Position numbers and translations under genes: made by a program. This document shows positions 20,031 through 27,626 of a DNA stretch of 36,571 nt, one piece after another. Each line of letters opens with the position of its first letter. The stretch's first letter is position 1. Origin of the DNA: Bacteroidota bacterium (GTDB lineage Bacteria > Bacteroidota > Ignavibacteria > Ignavibacteriales > SURF-24); the NCBI GenBank assembly GCA_030706145.1, contig JAUZPB010000038.1, forward strand, positions 1 to 36,571, given 5' to 3'. The notes under the pieces are model-generated. The model worked only from the letters and a program-made list of their open reading frames with translations, was not told the DNA's origin and searched no databases.

Positions 20031-22409
20031 ATGAACAAATATCATTACAAAATAAAACCTTGCCTATATTTGATAATTGCTTCTCTTTTCTTTTTCTCAA
20101 TAAGCTGCAATTCATCTTCTACAAAAATACATGTTAATTTTAAGATAATACTAAAAAAGCCTCTCTCCCATGAAAAAGTATATCTTACCGGCAGCAATAG
20201 CACACTTGGGAACTGGAACCCTTCTGCGGTTTTACTTGATAAACAATCGGACTCAGTTTGGACAAAAAAACTGGTATTTGAAAAAGGTGACAAGCTGGAA
20301 TTTAAGTTCACATTGGGGAGCTGGAAATCAGAAGCTGTTAATGCTGATGGCTGGATACTGGATAACTTCAGTTTGATCGCAAAAAATGACACAACATTTG
20401 TAACAAACATTTCCAATTGGAAAGATCATCAATATTCGAGAATTATAAAACCGGTATATATTTTCGGTAAAGATAATGGTATTATACTTGTGAATAACTG
20501 GAGATATCACGAAGGCGATAATCCTGAATGGGCTGGGTTAAGAGTTAATGATACCTTATGGAAGACTGTAGAATCCAACTTCACAACAGATAATTTTTAT
20601 GATCTCAAATGGCAAAACATTGGTTGGTTCAGAACTCATCTTCATATAGATCCTTCTTTATGGAATAAAACTTTGGGGTTAAAATTAACCCAATTGGGGG
20701 CTTCGGACATTTATTATAATGGCAGACTTATTTACTCTTCCGGCAAGGTTGGTAATTCTGAATTTGATTATTCCCCATCGCCAAAAAACAGCTGGAAAGA
20801 AATCACACTTGATCCAGTTCCTGATCATGTAATTGCCGTAAGATATGCCAATTATAAGTCAAAGACTGAAAGGAGCATAGGATTTGATCCAGGGTTTTCG
20901 ATACTTTTGATGGATCTAAATTCCGCATTTAATACTACAGACAATATTCGCAGTCACACAATTCATCAAATGGTTTTTACACTTATCCCACTGATTCTTT
21001 CTTTCCTTCATCTTTTTCTCTTCTTCTTTTATATAAAGCAGAGACAGAATTTATACTATGCGATATGTTTGCTTGGTTTTTCCGGGCTCACATTTTTTAA
21101 CTATGAAAGATTTCTGCTGGATAATGTTGATCTTATGATTTTCTTTCAAAGACTTAATGTTATGTCTGCAGCTACGGCCATATTTTTTGCACTACTTACT
21201 TTGTTTGAGATAAATTATCATAGCTTACCTAAAAGGTGGCGCTCATATCTAGCGCTTTATGTTATAATCTTTATGTCAGGTTTCCTCGACATCTCCCCCA
21301 GAATAACCAGCATGTTTATTTATTTTAGTTTTACAATTACCTTGGCAGAAGGAATTATTGCTGGTATTAAAACAAAAGCGGCAAGTAAAAAAGGAACATG
21401 GATAATTTTTATTGGCTTTATAGTTATGAGTATTTCTATTGTGCTACAAATTTTCGTAGACTTCGTTTTAGAGAATGGTCTATTCGGAGTCAACCAGATC
21501 TACGTTTATGGAATGATTGGGTTCATTATTTCGATGTCTCTTTACTTATCTTATAATTTCGCATATATCAATAAAGATCTGGAGTGGCAATTAGATAAGG
21601 TTAAAGTATTATCAAGGAAAACGATTGAACAAGAGCGGATTGCTGCCAGCCTTGAAATTGAAAGAAGAGTTATAGAAGCAGAAAACCTTAGAAAGACAAA
21701 AGAACTAGAATCGGCGCGGGAATTACAGTTATCCTTACTTCCAAAGGAGGTACCTCAGTTGGAAGATTTTGAAATTTCCTGTTACATGAAGACGGCTTCT
21801 GAAGTTGGGGGTGACTATTATGATTTTTATGTAACAGAGGATAATGCTTTAACTGTAATAATTGGTGATGCAACAGGGCATGGCCTAAAGGCCAGCAATA
21901 TGGTAATTTTAGCAAAAGGTCTGTTTAACACTCTTGTTCATGAATCAAATCTAATAAGCATAATGAATACATTTAACCGTTCGATCAAGCAAATGAATTT
22001 GCATATGCTCACAATGTGTATGGCACTTATAAGAGTCAGAGAAAACAGAATTGAATATAGTTCGGCAGGAATGCCCCCAATGCTAATATACAGGAACAAC
22101 ACAGGTGAAATTGAACAATTCCTATTAAAAGGAATGCCTCTAGGCGCTTTTTATGATTTTCCTTACAAAAGCCTCTCTACTGATATCAATAAAGGTGATG
22201 TAATGCTTCTGATGAGTGATGGTTTAGTTGAATTGTTTAATAAAGAAAACGATACTTATGGTTTAGAAAATGTCATTAAGTCCTTCAAAGATTCGGCAAA
22301 AAGATCAGTAGAAGAAACAATAACTCACATATGCAAAGAAAGCACCTTATGGTCCGGTGAAGCTCAGTTAAAAGATGATATTACAATTTTGGCCCTCAAA
22401 AAGAAATAG
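20031..22409 (+). CDS. Membrane sensor phosphatase: CBM20-like domain, 7-TM module, SpoIIE/RsbU PP2C domain
   Basis: 792 residues. An N-terminal signal (FFFSISC) suggests a lipoprotein-like or exported start. Residues about 33-130 look like a starch-binding CBM20 domain (HEKVYLTGSNSTLGNWNPSAVLL ends in a paired Trp pattern). Residues 170-300 form a beta-rich jelly-roll similar to sensor regions of 7TMR-DISM proteins. About seven membrane helices occupy 307-515, and a coiled coil about 515-565. The SpoIIE-type PP2C phosphatase (about 566-790) has metal-binding acids in EVGGDYYDFY (about 590), IGDATGHGLKA (about 611), LMSDGLVE and LKDDITIL. Such phosphatases act on anti-sigma-factor antagonists in partner-switching. 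No STAS or anti-sigma gene is adjacent, so its target lies elsewhere. Confidence 0.85.
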   Translation: MNKYHYKIKPCLYLIIASLFFFSISCNSSSTKIHVNFKIILKKPLSHEKVYLTGSNSTLGNWNPSAVLLDKQSDSVWTKKLVFEKGDKLEFKFTLGSWKSEAVNADGWILDNFSLIAKNDTTFVTNISNWKDHQYSRIIKPVYIFGKDNGIILVNNWRYHEGDNPEWAGLRVNDTLWKTVESNFTTDNFYDLKWQNIGWFRTHLHIDPSLWNKTLGLKLTQLGASDIYYNGRLIYSSGKVGNSEFDYSPSPKNSWKEITLDPVPDHVIAVRYANYKSKTERSIGFDPGFSILLMDLNSAFNTTDNIRSHTIHQMVFTLIPLILSFLHLFLFFFYIKQRQNLYYAICLLGFSGLTFFNYERFLLDNVDLMIFFQRLNVMSAATAIFFALLTLFEINYHSLPKRWRSYLALYVIIFMSGFLDISPRITSMFIYFSFTITLAEGIIAGIKTKAASKKGTWIIFIGFIVMSISIVLQIFVDFVLENGLFGVNQIYVYGMIGFIISMSLYLSYNFAYINKDLEWQLDKVKVLSRKTIEQERIAASLEIERRVIEAENLRKTKELESARELQLSLLPKEVPQLEDFEISCYMKTASEVGGDYYDFYVTEDNALTVIIGDATGHGLKASNMVILAKGLFNTLVHESNLISIMNTFNRSIKQMNLHMLTMCMALIRVRENRIEYSSAGMPPMLIYRNNTGEIEQFLLKGMPLGAFYDFPYKSLSTDINKGDVMLLMSDGLVELFNKENDTYGLENVIKSFKDSAKRSVEETITHICKESTLWSGEAQLKDDITILALKKK

Positions 22410-22561
22410 AGATAAAGGGCCTGCCCATATATAAAAGTAAAGCCCCCTAAAACCAAAGCTCAAAGTATCTTCGCTTCAGAAAAATCATATTTTCGGATAG
22501 AAATTTATTTTTTTGATAAAATTTGCAAAAAAAAGAGAAAAAAACTTGCATTTTTCACTTC

Positions 22562-22605
22562 TGATAATTATTTATCGATATCAAAATATCGATAAATAAT
22601 TATCA
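22562..22605. promoter_or_regulatory. 44-bp near-perfect palindrome upstream of rex
   Basis: Two 20-base arms (22562-22581 and 22586-22605) pair perfectly around the four-base centre CAAA. The arms contain nested symmetric units: TATCGATA at 22573-22580 and again at 22587-22594 (14 bp apart), and GATAATTATTTATC-type outer parts. A further TATCGA follows at 22612. The element ends 25 bp before the rex ATG, so it is best read as an operator, probably autoregulatory. It does not match the known TTGTGA-type Rex site. Confidence 0.7.
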
Positions 22606-22630
22606 ATATTATATCGAAAAAGGATAAAAA

Positions 22631-23338
22631 ATGGAAACAAATTCCTGGGCTAATAAAACATTCAATGAAACCAAAGCTTCATCAGAGAGCTTATTAAAAG
22701 AGCTACGCCTGCCCACAATAAGAAGATTTCCTAAATATTTGAGAGTACTATGGGATTTATCTTCGCTTGGACGTGATTTTGTTTCTTCTGATAAAATTGC
22801 GAATGAATTAAATATAGATCCTATAACCGTACGTAAAGATCTGGCTTTTACTGGTGTTATAGGAAAGCCCAGGATTGGTTATTCTATTCCATTATTAATA
22901 AATGGGATTGAGCAGTTAATTCAGTCAAATGGGCAAACAAACATACTCTTAATTGGAGCCGGGAATCTCGGTAGAGCCCTTCTAGGCTACGGTGGACTTG
23001 AAAAGCATGGATACAACATTGTTGCAGCATTTGATTCTGATCTTAACAAAGTAGGTACTACAATCCATAACAAACAAGTTTATAATATAGAACAGTTAAC
23101 TGAAATAACAGAAAAAGTTAATATTGAAATTGGCGTGCTTTGTATCCCTGAAGATGTTGCACAAAAAACTGCAACTTTTCTAGTAAAAGCCGGAATAAAA
23201 GCGATTTGGAATTTCACAAATACCGAATTAAAAGTACCAGAACATGTTACTGTACTCAGTGAAGATCTTGCCTCAAGCCTTGCAGTACTATCAGTAAACA
23301 TGAAAAGAAACTCAAATAAAAAAGCGAAAGAAGAATAA
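22631..23338 (+). CDS. rex: Redox-sensing transcriptional repressor Rex
   Basis: 235 residues. The N-terminal winged helix (about 22-85) has LRLPTIRRFPKYLRVL, VSSDKIANELNIDPITVRKDL and GKPRIGY. The Rossmann domain follows with the NAD(H) motif ILLIGAGNLGRALLGYGG, then IVAAFDSD and a C-terminal dimerisation helix. Rex dimers leave DNA when NADH binds, switching on fermentative and hydrogen-evolving genes. A ribosome site AAAGGA precedes the ATG by six bases. The large palindrome directly before it suggests self-control, and the next two genes are typical Rex targets. Confidence 0.93.
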   Translation: METNSWANKTFNETKASSESLLKELRLPTIRRFPKYLRVLWDLSSLGRDFVSSDKIANELNIDPITVRKDLAFTGVIGKPRIGYSIPLLINGIEQLIQSNGQTNILLIGAGNLGRALLGYGGLEKHGYNIVAAFDSDLNKVGTTIHNKQVYNIEQLTEITEKVNIEIGVLCIPEDVAQKTATFLVKAGIKAIWNFTNTELKVPEHVTVLSEDLASSLAVLSVNMKRNSNKKAKEE

Positions 23339-23477: not shown

Positions 23478-24926
23478 ATGGAGAGTAGTCTAGTAAAGAT
23501 CAGAAGAGAGATATACGTAAGGATAGCTGAAGCATTTTTTGAAAACAAGTTAAATGAGAAGATAGACAGGATCCCCCTTGAAATGCGCCCTAAGAACGGG
23601 AGTGAATTATCTCGCTGCTGCATTTATAAAGACAGAGAAATGATAAAATACAGGATAATGGCTGCATTAGGTTTAGGAGTTGAGGATGAAGAAGATGAGC
23701 TAACACCACTTTCAGAGTATGCAAAAGAAGCGTTAAACAGTCATGTAAAAGATTCCTATCTAACAATATTTTCAGATTTATGCAGTGCTTGTATAAAGAC
23801 ACATTATCACGTTACAGACGGATGCCGAGGCTGCGTAGCACGTCCATGTACAACAAGTTGTGCAAAAGAAGCAATATCGTTTATAAACGGCAAAGCAATA
23901 ATTAATTCAGATTCATGCGTAGGATGTGGCAAGTGCATGACTGTATGCCCATATAGATCAATAATCCGGGTTCCGATTCCATGTGAAGAATCCTGCCCCA
24001 CAGGAGCTATTACGAAAGATCAAAGTGGGAAGGAAGAAATAGATGATAATAAATGCATTCTATGCGGGAAATGTCTGCAGGCGTGTCCTTTTGGTGCAAT
24101 AGCTGAAAGGTCACAACTGATTAAAGTTCTGCAAGCTCTTTCAGAAGGTGAACCTGTAGTAGCACTTATTGCTCCCTCAATAGCAGGACAATTCTCCGGT
24201 TCTATGGAACAGTTGCACAGTGCGCTGATGAAATTAGGATTTTCTTCAGTCTTAGAAGTTGCCCATGGGGCAGAACAGACTGCGATAGAAGAGACAAATG
24301 AATTCCAGGAAAGGATGGTAAACGGCCAGCAATTCATGACAAGTTCATGCTGTTCGGCTTATGTATTGGCAGTAAACAAACACATTGTTAAGCTTCAGCC
24401 TTATGTTTCCAATACGCCATCACCTATGATATTTGCAGGAAGGAATGCAAGAGAAAAATATCCTACAGCAAAAACAGTTTTTATAGGACCATGTCTAGCC
24501 AAAAGAAGTGAAGCTTTCAACTCAGGATATATTGATTATACCTTGACATTTGTAGAGTTGGATTCTCTATTTATTTCAAAAGGTATAAACGTTGGTGAGT
24601 GTGAGGCAGTAGAACTGATGAAACCTGCGACAAAAGAATCATTACTGTTTGCTGTTTCAGGAGGAGTTGCAGGAGCTGTAGGTTATTGTATAAATCCAAA
24701 TATTAATTTTAGGCCTTACATAGTAAATGGTTACAACCGGCGCGAATTAAAACAGCTGCCGGGAAAACTAATAAATCAGAAACCAGGAAATTTTATTGAA
24801 GTAATGACCTGCGAAGGCGGATGCATAGCAGGGCCAGGGACAATTGTTAATTCAAATAATGCCGCGCGGAGTGTTGAACGTCTAGCAGAAAAAGCCGATT
24901 CCATTTTCAAAGCTGAAATAGGTTAA
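23478..24926 (+). CDS. Monomeric [FeFe] hydrogenase, group B (FeFe_hydrog_B1-like)
   Basis: 482 residues. The N-terminal part (RIPLEMRPKN...RCCIYKDREM) is typical of the group-B1 monomeric enzymes. Ferredoxin-like cysteine sets follow: CRGCVARPCTTSC, CVGCGKCMTVCP, and CILCGKCLQACPFGA. The H-cluster loops are L1 TSSCCSAY, L2 GPCLAKRSE and L3 MTCEGGCIAGPG; the cysteines expected for the cluster are present. L1 has Ser where Pro is usual (CCP). The enzyme would use ferredoxin electrons to make or oxidise hydrogen. The position between rex and adhE suits a route for excess reductant. No HydE/F/G maturase gene is in the window. Confidence 0.9.
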   Translation: MESSLVKIRREIYVRIAEAFFENKLNEKIDRIPLEMRPKNGSELSRCCIYKDREMIKYRIMAALGLGVEDEEDELTPLSEYAKEALNSHVKDSYLTIFSDLCSACIKTHYHVTDGCRGCVARPCTTSCAKEAISFINGKAIINSDSCVGCGKCMTVCPYRSIIRVPIPCEESCPTGAITKDQSGKEEIDDNKCILCGKCLQACPFGAIAERSQLIKVLQALSEGEPVVALIAPSIAGQFSGSMEQLHSALMKLGFSSVLEVAHGAEQTAIEETNEFQERMVNGQQFMTSSCCSAYVLAVNKHIVKLQPYVSNTPSPMIFAGRNAREKYPTAKTVFIGPCLAKRSEAFNSGYIDYTLTFVELDSLFISKGINVGECEAVELMKPATKESLLFAVSGGVAGAVGYCINPNINFRPYIVNGYNRRELKQLPGKLINQKPGNFIEVMTCEGGCIAGPGTIVNSNNAARSVERLAEKADSIFKAEIG

Positions 24927-25025: not shown

Positions 25026-27626
25026 ATGAGCGATAAAACATATGTAAAGAATCCTGAAGAACTTGAACGCTTAATTGAAAGAGTTGCAAAGGCACAAGAG
25101 CAATATGCAAGTTTTTCACAGGAAGCAGTAAACAGCATTTTTAGAAGAGCAGCGCTTGCAGCAAGCAGTATGAGGATTGAACTTGCAAAAGCTGCTTGTG
25201 AAGAAACCGGAATGGGTATTGTTGAAGATAAAGTAATCAAAAACCATTTTGCATCTGAATATATATATAACCGGTACAAAGATGAAAAGACATGCGGTGT
25301 TATTGAGTCAGATGGAACATATGGTGTAAAAAAAATAGCCGAACCAATTGGAATAATTGCAGGCGTAATACCAACAACAAATCCTACCTCGACAGCAATA
25401 TTTAAGGCATTACTAGCGCTAAAGACAAGGAATGCAATAATCTTTTCGCCTCATCCAAGAGCAAAGAAGTGTACAATAATGGCAGCAGAAATTGTAAGAA
25501 AAGCAGCCGTTGAAGCCGGCGCGCCAGAAGATATTATAGGTTGGATCGATGAGCCAACAATAGATCTTAGCAACAGGTTAATGAAACATCCTAAGATAAG
25601 TCTTATTCTTGCCACTGGCGGACCTGGAATGGTAAAAGCTGCTTATTCAAGTGGAAAGCCAGCACTTGGAGTAGGAGCAGGCAACACTCCAGCGATCATA
25701 GACGAAACAGCACATCTGAAGATGGCCGTATCTAGCATTTTGATTTCCAAGACATTTGACAATGGAGTAATATGCGCAAGTGAACAATCAGTTGTAGTAG
25801 TCGATTCTGTTTACCAGGCGGTACACGATGAATTCATTGCAAGAGGAGCTTATATATTAAATGATAAAGAAAAAGCGAAAGTTGGTAAAGTAATTTTATC
25901 TGATGGAAAGATAAATGCTGATATAGTTGGGCAAAGTGCTGAGACAATAGCCAAGATGGCTTCAATTAAGGTTCCTAAGGATACTAAAGCGCTTATAGCA
26001 GAGTGCAGTAGCGTTGGGAAAGATGAACCTTTCTCATACGAAAAATTGTCTCCAACATTAGCTCTTTACAGGGCAAAAGATTTCAAAGACGCAGTAAGTA
26101 TTGCAGATAAACTTGTAAGATTTGGCGGACTAGGGCATACATCTGTTTTATATACAGAGGCCAGAAACAAAGACAGAATAGATTATGTAGGGACCTGCTT
26201 AAAAACAGGACGTGTGTTAATAAACACGCCAGCTTCTCAAGGTGCAATAGGCGATATTTATAATTTCAAACTTGAACCGAGTTTAACTCTTGGTTGCGGT
26301 TCATGGGGAGGTAATTCTGTGAGTGAAAATGTTGGTATTAAGCATTTAATAAATATAAAAACAATAGCAGAGCGAAGAGAAAACATGCTATGGTTCCGCG
26401 TTCCACCAAAAATATATTTCAAATACGGATGTCTTCCCATCGCGCTTCAGGAATTGGCAGGAAGGAAAAGAGTTTTTATTGTAACGGATAAATCTTTGTT
26501 TGATCTTGGTTATTCAGACCGAGTAATCAGAGTATTAGAAGAATTAAAAATTGAATGCGAAGTGTTCTCTGAAGTTGCTCCTGATCCTACGTTAAGTACA
26601 GTAACAAGAGGTTTAGAAAGAATAAAAGTTTTCCGTCCAGACGTTTTGATTGCAATGGGTGGAGGATCTCCCATAGATGCTACTAAAATAATGTGGGCAA
26701 TGTATGAGCATCCTGAGATAACCTTTGAAGGACTTGCACAGCGGTTTATGGACATTCGTAAGAGAATTTACAATGTACCGGAAAAGCCAAAAAAATCGAT
26801 GATGATAGCTATTCCAACAACAAGTGGTACAGGAAGTGAAGTAACTCCATTTGCTGTTGTTACAGATGATGCAACGGGAATTAAATATCCTGTTACAGAT
26901 TATGAACTTACTCCAGATATGGCAATAGTAGATCCAGAGTTGGTTTTGAGCATGCCCAAAAGCCTAACAGCATTCTCAGGGATTGATGCAATAGTACATT
27001 CAATTGAAGCCTATGTTTCAATCTTTGCAAATGAATATACAAATGGTCAAGCCCTTGAGGCAGTCAGGCTTCTTGTAAAATACTTACCAGATTCATACAA
27101 GAAGGGAGCTGCAGATCTGAAGGCAAAAGAAAAAGTACACTACGCAGCAACAATGGCAGGAATGGCATTTGCAAATGCATTTTTGGGAGTATGTCATTCA
27201 ATGGCGCATAAGCTTGGAGCAGCATTCCATATTCCACATGGATTGGCAAACGCATTACTAATTAGCCAAGTTATCAGATATAATGCTACAGATGTTCCTA
27301 AAAAACAGGCAGCATTTGCCCAGTATAAATATCCTTTGATAATCGAACGCTATGGAAAAATTGCCGACTACATTGGGCTTCAGGGCAGCACACCAGCGGC
27401 AAAGATAGACGCACTTATCGCAAAGATCGAAGAGATAAAAAAAGCCCTTGATATACCTTTATCAATAAAGGAAGCAGGAGTAAATGAAGCTGAATTTATG
27501 GCAAAGATAGATGAACTTTCAGAGCTTGCTTTTGATGATCAGTGTACAGGTGGTAATCCGAGATTCCCTCTTATTTCGGAAATCAAAGAGCTTTACCTAA
27601 AGGCATGGAATGGAAATACAAAGTAG
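25026..27626 (+). CDS. adhE: Bifunctional acetaldehyde-CoA / alcohol dehydrogenase
   Basis: 866 residues, the normal AdhE length. The N-terminal aldehyde dehydrogenase half (about 1-440) has PTTNPTSTAIFKALLALKT, GVGAGNTPAIID and NGVICASEQS with catalytic Cys250. The C-terminal iron-dependent alcohol dehydrogenase half (about 455-866) has AMGGGSPIDATK, IPTTSGTGSEVTPFAV and the metal-binding GVCHSMAHKLGAAFHIPHG. It reduces acetyl-CoA to ethanol through acetaldehyde, consuming two NADH. It lies 99 bp after the hydrogenase gene with its own ribosome site (AAAGGAAATAAAATG). AdhE is a classic Rex target, and these proteins often form spirosomes. The strong terminator after it closes the transcription unit. 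Confidence 0.95.
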   Translation: MSDKTYVKNPEELERLIERVAKAQEQYASFSQEAVNSIFRRAALAASSMRIELAKAACEETGMGIVEDKVIKNHFASEYIYNRYKDEKTCGVIESDGTYGVKKIAEPIGIIAGVIPTTNPTSTAIFKALLALKTRNAIIFSPHPRAKKCTIMAAEIVRKAAVEAGAPEDIIGWIDEPTIDLSNRLMKHPKISLILATGGPGMVKAAYSSGKPALGVGAGNTPAIIDETAHLKMAVSSILISKTFDNGVICASEQSVVVVDSVYQAVHDEFIARGAYILNDKEKAKVGKVILSDGKINADIVGQSAETIAKMASIKVPKDTKALIAECSSVGKDEPFSYEKLSPTLALYRAKDFKDAVSIADKLVRFGGLGHTSVLYTEARNKDRIDYVGTCLKTGRVLINTPASQGAIGDIYNFKLEPSLTLGCGSWGGNSVSENVGIKHLINIKTIAERRENMLWFRVPPKIYFKYGCLPIALQELAGRKRVFIVTDKSLFDLGYSDRVIRVLEELKIECEVFSEVAPDPTLSTVTRGLERIKVFRPDVLIAMGGGSPIDATKIMWAMYEHPEITFEGLAQRFMDIRKRIYNVPEKPKKSMMIAIPTTSGTGSEVTPFAVVTDDATGIKYPVTDYELTPDMAIVDPELVLSMPKSLTAFSGIDAIVHSIEAYVSIFANEYTNGQALEAVRLLVKYLPDSYKKGAADLKAKEKVHYAATMAGMAFANAFLGVCHSMAHKLGAAFHIPHGLANALLISQVIRYNATDVPKKQAAFAQYKYPLIIERYGKIADYIGLQGSTPAAKIDALIAKIEEIKKALDIPLSIKEAGVNEAEFMAKIDELSELAFDDQCTGGNPRFPLISEIKELYLKAWNGNTK

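Follow-up and report, generated by a model that had tools for sequence, protein, structure and literature searches.

A perfect palindrome before rex in an Ignavibacteriales genome is best read as a ladder of overlapping variant Rex operators

The window analysed for the current report, that is, the whole 36,571-nucleotide stretch of contig JAUZPB010000038.1, contains a perfect 44-bp palindrome that ends 25 nt before the ATG of a rex gene. Judging from sequence comparisons, we consider it very probable that this palindrome is an autoregulatory Rex operator, a ladder of overlapping variant sites through which bound Rex would switch the rex, hydrogenase and adhE genes by the level of NADH. We take it to be a variant Rex operator laid out as an overlapping ladder, and neither a foreign element nor the mark of a new regulator. 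The observations computed here concern the sequence itself, the pitch of its boxes, its linkage to rex across genomes, the coupling between a Rex residue and a base of the half-site, and the sites that occur before other redox genes.

A first-pass annotation of the same DNA had reported a 44-bp palindrome before rex with 20 paired bases in each arm, and this is confirmed: the arms (22562-22581 and 22586-22605) are 20 nt long, 100% complementary and separated by a loop of 4 nt, and with loops of up to 8 nt allowed, no other perfect inverted repeat in the window is as long. The longest inverted repeat did not exceed 17 nt (mean 9.8, against the observed arm of 20) in 60 dinucleotide shuffles of the window, or 14 nt in 300 shuffles of the local 300 bp. 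The palindrome resolves into half-site boxes at a pitch of 14 bp (Table 1), which read TTCTGATA, TATCGATA, TATCGATA and TATCAATA and are separated by A/T-rich spacers of 6 nt. Of these, two units 14 bp apart and a third, partial copy had already been recognized, and the third indeed lies in register as TATCAATA; the TTCTGATA box is an addition to that list. The window holds just these two exact copies of TATCGATA, a number that is not rare in itself, since at least two were found in 13 of 100 shuffles. An adjacent pair of boxes contains the 18-bp sequence TCGATA-N6-TATCGA, and because TATCGATA is itself palindromic, an inner box can belong to two neighbouring operators, as the right half-site of the first and the left half-site of the second, which makes the operators overlap. 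Four boxes at a 14-bp pitch thus give three overlapping predicted Rex operators that share half-sites, and the great length of the palindrome follows from this overlap of several 18-bp operators; the earlier suggestion of multimeric binding by several protomers is supported. Another long form of the same ladder, a 38-bp perfect palindrome without a loop, lies before rex at locus L030 (G014:C80:51365-51386 plus flanks).

Table 1. Positions in the window of the palindrome, its boxes and predicted operators, a candidate promoter and the genes downstream
Feature	Position	Strand	Basis
Whole ladder, 44-bp perfect palindrome (20-bp arms, 4-nt loop)	22562..22605		Inverted-repeat search and shuffles
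Half-site box 1, degenerate, TTCTGATA, in 14-bp register	22559..22566		G075 orthologue has AATTGATA at the matching place
Half-site box 2, TATCGATA	22573..22580		Exact copy
Half-site box 3, TATCGATA	22587..22594		Exact copy
Half-site box 4, degenerate, TATCAATA	22601..22608		Outer box TATCAATA also in G003; one further change in G004, TATCAACA
Central Rex-type operator TCGATA-N6-TATCGA, perfect 6/6 (predicted)	22575..22592		Sequence
Upstream overlapping operator, boxes 1 and 2, imperfect (predicted)	22561..22578		Sequence
Downstream overlapping operator, boxes 3 and 4, 5/6 pairs (predicted)	22589..22606		Sequence
Candidate promoter, weak match: -35 TTGCAT (22546-22551), 17 nt, -10 TATTTA (22569-22574) overlapping box 2	22546..22574	+	TTG at the same place before the G003 and G004 ladders
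rex (Rex1, 235 aa), winged-helix DNA-binding and NAD-binding Rossmann domain; specificity residue I65 in DPITVRKDL	22631..23338	+	Profile matches
Monomeric [FeFe] hydrogenase (TIGR04105), probably co-transcribed with rex	23478..24926	+	Profile match
adhE, bifunctional acetaldehyde-CoA/alcohol dehydrogenase, probably in the same operon	25026..27626	+	Profile match

The assignment of the gene downstream as rex is based on matches of its product to the N-terminal winged-helix domain PF06971 (E 4e-14, above the cut-off) and the C-terminal Rossmann domain PF02629 (E 1.7e-21), on a GxGxxG motif (GAGNLG, residues 109-114) and on a score of 241.3 bits against the NCBIfam Rex model NF003994, for which the curated cut-off is 130. 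No clear operator was found in the 99-bp gap before adhE, which is therefore probably under the control of the ladder. The gene just upstream of rex (20031-22409) encodes a SpoIIE-type phosphatase with starch-binding (CBM20) and 7TM-DISM membrane domains.

The candidate -10 hexamer of the window lies directly 5' of the central operator, as it does in G003 and G004. A consensus promoter scan reported no plus-strand promoter at this position, so the window's promoter is tentative; its hexamers are weak matches and stand off the register that was found more widely. In 10 of 62 loci, TTG[AC] occurs exactly 19 nt before the first half-site, whereas no offset gave a count above 5 in 1000 shuffles, and in those 10 a -10-like hexamer (mean 4.6 of 6 matches to TATAAT) follows 17 nt further on, starting inside the half-site. 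With TTG[AC] at -19, the -10 hexamer thus falls inside the first operator.

The linkage of the element to rex extends across the order. The exact two-box core, TATCGATA-N6-TATCGATA, occurs at 8 distinct places in 8 of 160 genomes, while a reversed control pattern gave no match in these 160, and 7 of the 8 places are directly upstream of rex (in G000, which is the window's own genome, and in G014, G017, G034, G119, G143 and G155). The remaining place, in G027, is about 100 bp upstream of a gene that scores above the NCBIfam cut-off for AdhP (alcohol dehydrogenase). Of 164 genomes of the order, 30 gave a rex match, and these include all 8 that bear the core. When a 91-bp stretch was used for a DNA search, rex promoters made up 7 of the 9 top-ranking distinct places in genomes other than G000; 139 of 160 genomes have some match to this stretch at E 0.1, which indicates that the weaker matches are mostly due to chance. 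The closest orthologue (G075, 72% identity) is preceded by a ladder of three boxes in register, compared with four in the window, and the three boxes before rex in G003 and G004 correspond to boxes 2 to 4 of the window; the simplest reading of these differences is that one 14-bp unit was gained or lost. Absence before rex in close relatives had been named as evidence against the element, and what we find is its presence upstream of the G075 orthologue and of rex genes from other genera in the order.

Exact matches with spacers N3-N9 were compared in 20 chosen genomes. Among the matches listed, 21 have an N6 spacer, of which rex accounts for 14, adhP for 2 and other places for 5, and 54 have other spacings, of which 0 are at rex. 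Counts of patterns with one mismatch, set against the reversed control, were dropped as a test of rex linkage; they were high in G050 and G007, which have no rex match, so that the control was poor, for which reason exact matches were used instead. In these two genomes and in G057, likewise without a rex match, TCGATA inverted repeats exceed the reversed control, and those among the matches listed have mostly non-N6 spacers.

Rex-type 18-bp sites are found before 45 of 98 rex genes, against a shuffle expectation of 2.05. Of 135 rex loci, 73 lack a T-x-[GA]-x-[GT]-A site with N6; several of these belong to the order and have degenerate boxes or none. As a positive control, the same kind of scan found the canonical TTGTGA-N6-TCACAA 39-41 nt before three other rex genes at the level of the class. 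One rex promoter (L038, G004:C22) has both the canonical sequence at -76 and TCGAGA-N6-TCTCGA at -23; given these two types of site and the more distant Rex paralogues that G004 also encodes, one Rex may control another.

Within G000, which comprises 5.3 Mb and three rex genes, no second exact copy of the two-box core was found. Sites with at most one mismatch number 13, of which 9 are within open reading frames and 4 are intergenic; the latter comprise an overlapping pair at rex1 and single sites at rex2 and upstream of sdhC, with none elsewhere between genes. The rex2 gene is followed by genes for a 2Fe-2S ferredoxin, an [FeFe] hydrogenase-like protein with a PAS domain and, 3' of the latter, another SpoIIE-type phosphatase. 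As with classical Rex sites, the predicted ones thus precede rex and genes of NADH-linked fermentation or respiration, here rex-hydB-adhE, rex2-hydrogenase and sdhC in G000 and adhP in G027. The third rex has TAGAGA-N6-TCTCGA, the dialect of the Thr-type proteins described below, and so the three paralogues (window 22631, L003 at G000:C79:45556 and L002 at G000:C157:1722) use two operator dialects, TATCGA-type for rex1 and rex2 and TCTCGA-type for rex3.

The 14-bp pitch was analysed in 92 loci, 35 from the order and 57 from elsewhere, which remained of 118 after exclusion of 20 unlocated, 4 duplicate and 2 short ones; boxes were counted in 36 loci, picked because sites were present. The 35 dereplicated upstream regions of the order have 28 pairs of TCGA boxes at 14 bp, 7 at 28 and 1 at 42, with a shuffle mean of 0.02 for the 14-bp pairs, and the 57 regions from outside it have 7 pairs at 14 bp and 3 at 28, with a shuffle mean of 0.00. 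Perfect inverted repeats in the order are most frequent with a spacer of N6 (17 of 35 regions); N8 (16 of 35) and N2 and N4 (13 of 35 each) rise as well because the palindromes are long. Ladders also stand before rex in Spirochaetota (L115), Planctomycetota (L157), Nitrospirota (L119), Desulfobulbus (L118) and Armatimonadota (L089, L092), and ladders with TAGATA letters occur in Myxococcota and Omnitrophota, among others. The proposal of a lineage-specific Rex site is supported as regards Rex, but the layout extends beyond a single lineage. The idea that ladders require a strictly self-complementary half-site core was rejected, since the TAGATA-type loci L147, L152, L153 and L151 were seen by eye to have 14-bp boxes too. 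Upstream of a Treponema rex (L117) there is a cluster of repeated GATCGATA/TATCGATC palindromes that is off the 14-bp pitch.

The letters of the half-site vary together with the recognition helix of Rex. For this comparison we used 135 rex loci, after removal of 6 duplicates and 3 with short upstream sequence and with the unlocated L093, L098, L106 and L247 not included; 62 of them carry T-x-[GA]-x-[GT]-A half-sites with N6. Where the residue three positions before the recognition Arg (I65 in the window) is Ile or Val, position 5 of the half-site is T in 36 of 36 cases. With Thr there, it is G in 15 of 22, mixed in 5 and T in 2 (L099 and L139); G is found in all 3 cases with His, whose sites are of the TTGTGA type, and T in the single case with Ser. 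I65 aligns with Ser45 of the Thermotoga maritima protein, and the equivalent residues of three further Rex proteins make base contacts in their complexes with DNA (PMC8836258). A similar relation exists at position 3, where the half-site G is contacted by Arg48 of T. maritima Rex (PMC8836258): in Bacteroidota proteins in which Thr or Val replaces the recognition Arg, position 3 is A in 6 of 7 cases and mixed in 1. In five such Bacteroidota loci (L146, L148, L160, L165 and L168), where the Arg-less Rex reads QVTKD or QVVKD, the site upstream of rex is TAAAGA-N6-TCTTTA, and A replaces the contacted G. On a tree of 58 of the 62 site-bearing loci, listed by hand with L028, L159, L225 and L248 excluded, the link between residue and position 5, although strong in counts, involves 8 independent changes on the best tree but 1 pair when well-supported branches alone are considered, too few for it to be significant after phylogeny, and the link between Arg and position 3 is that of one clade, the trait changing once. 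The coupling suggests a rule by which Ile or Val goes with a TATCGA-like site and Thr with a TCTCGA-like site, and by which paralogous Rex proteins within one genome can be distinguished by their sites.

Some features of the palindrome might be accounted for in other ways. Palindromic, A/T-rich sites are common for redox or NO regulators of the Crp/Fnr type, and the letters of the site differ from TTGTGA, so that a regulator of rex other than Rex itself might be its user. We regard this as improbable, because the two-box core occurs only in genomes that bear rex and nearly always at rex, because its letters change with the recognition helix of Rex and retain T1, G3 and A6 in the 18-bp Rex geometry, and because Thr-type Rex paralogues of the same family carry TCGAGA sites. 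It is less probable still that the palindrome acts as RNA, either as a hairpin or attenuator in the 5'-UTR or as the terminator of the upstream phosphatase gene, even though its fold has an energy of -23.7 kcal/mol (z -7.7) and a terminator-like pattern was reported at its position. The stem has just 3 G-C pairs and no clean T run after it, no Rfam family was matched at the gathering score, and the relatives conserve a pitch and box letters that a hairpin does not need; moreover, 10 of the 62 related promoters have their -10 hexamer within the first pair of boxes, so that transcription would leave out part of the palindrome. Long perfect palindromes are also typical of REP- or MITE-like repeats, one of which could have come to lie before rex by chance, but we give this hardly any credence in view of the single exact core in the genome, the few and mostly coding one-mismatch sites and the predominance of rex promoters among the best matches to the 91-bp stretch.

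If the palindrome is a ladder of Rex operators, as we prefer to read it, each 18-bp TCGATA-N6-TATCGA unit would be a variant site for one Rex dimer. At low NADH, Rex-NAD+ would cover the -10 region and the start of the promoter and repress rex-hydrogenase-adhE, probably a single transcript, and as NADH rises Rex1 would dissociate and allow NADH-consuming enzymes to be made; repression by Rex-NAD+ with release by NADH is the established mechanism of the family (PMC8836258). Overlapping operators need the same TCGA and should therefore not hold two dimers simultaneously, so that the possible occupancies might be two dimers, on boxes 1-2 and 3-4, or one on boxes 2-3. A more speculative and, in our estimation, rather doubtful extension is that of a graded switch, in which a central dimer excludes two weaker flanking ones by way of the shared boxes and is replaced by two outer dimers as active Rex rises, with the self-complementary TCGA easing the sharing and with ladders having grown and shrunk by 14-bp steps in several phyla. 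The box-sharing ladder is an unusual operator layout and is directly testable. The usual searches for Rex sites rely on the TTGTGA consensus, and the regulons of the bacteria described here would escape them.

As far as the portions of the literature available to us extend, we found neither TCGATA sites for Rex nor overlapping Rex ladders described; Ravcheev et al. 2012, who according to PMC5045206 studied variation of Rex sites and its correlation between protein and DNA, may contain part of this. Their consensus for the classical operator, TTGTGAANNNNTTCACAA (as quoted in PMC5317091 and PMC6391272), is not matched by the half-site of the element, and for this reason we file it as a variant and not as a classical operator. 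The earlier remark that it does not resemble TTGTGA-type sites is correct for the letters, the half-site being TCGATA with 3 of 6 letters changed, but not for the architecture, since the element shares with TTGTGA-N6-TCACAA an 18-bp inverted repeat of 6-nt half-sites around N6, retains T1, G3 and A6, and has the same position before rex, hydrogenase and adh genes. A further difference is that its units have boxes in common and overlap at the 14-bp pitch. Multiple Rex sites at one target promoter are likewise known from rex and adhE of Streptococcus mutans (PMC3441419) and from ldh1 of Staphylococcus aureus, where two shifted bands appear (PMC3544828); the available text of these two reports describes two sites, and box sharing or a 14-bp register was not found there. 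A close half-site is that of the TM0201 operator in complex with T. maritima Rex (7WB3; PMC8836258), TTGAGA, from which TCGATA differs only at positions 2 and 5. The Arg48/Lys49 pair of that protein is conserved in the window's Rex as R68/K69, whereas Arg60-Gly61 of its wing is Pro-Arg here and Ser45 is Ile65 (PMC8836258), and the changed wing together with Ile65 may explain the two changed letters of the half-site.
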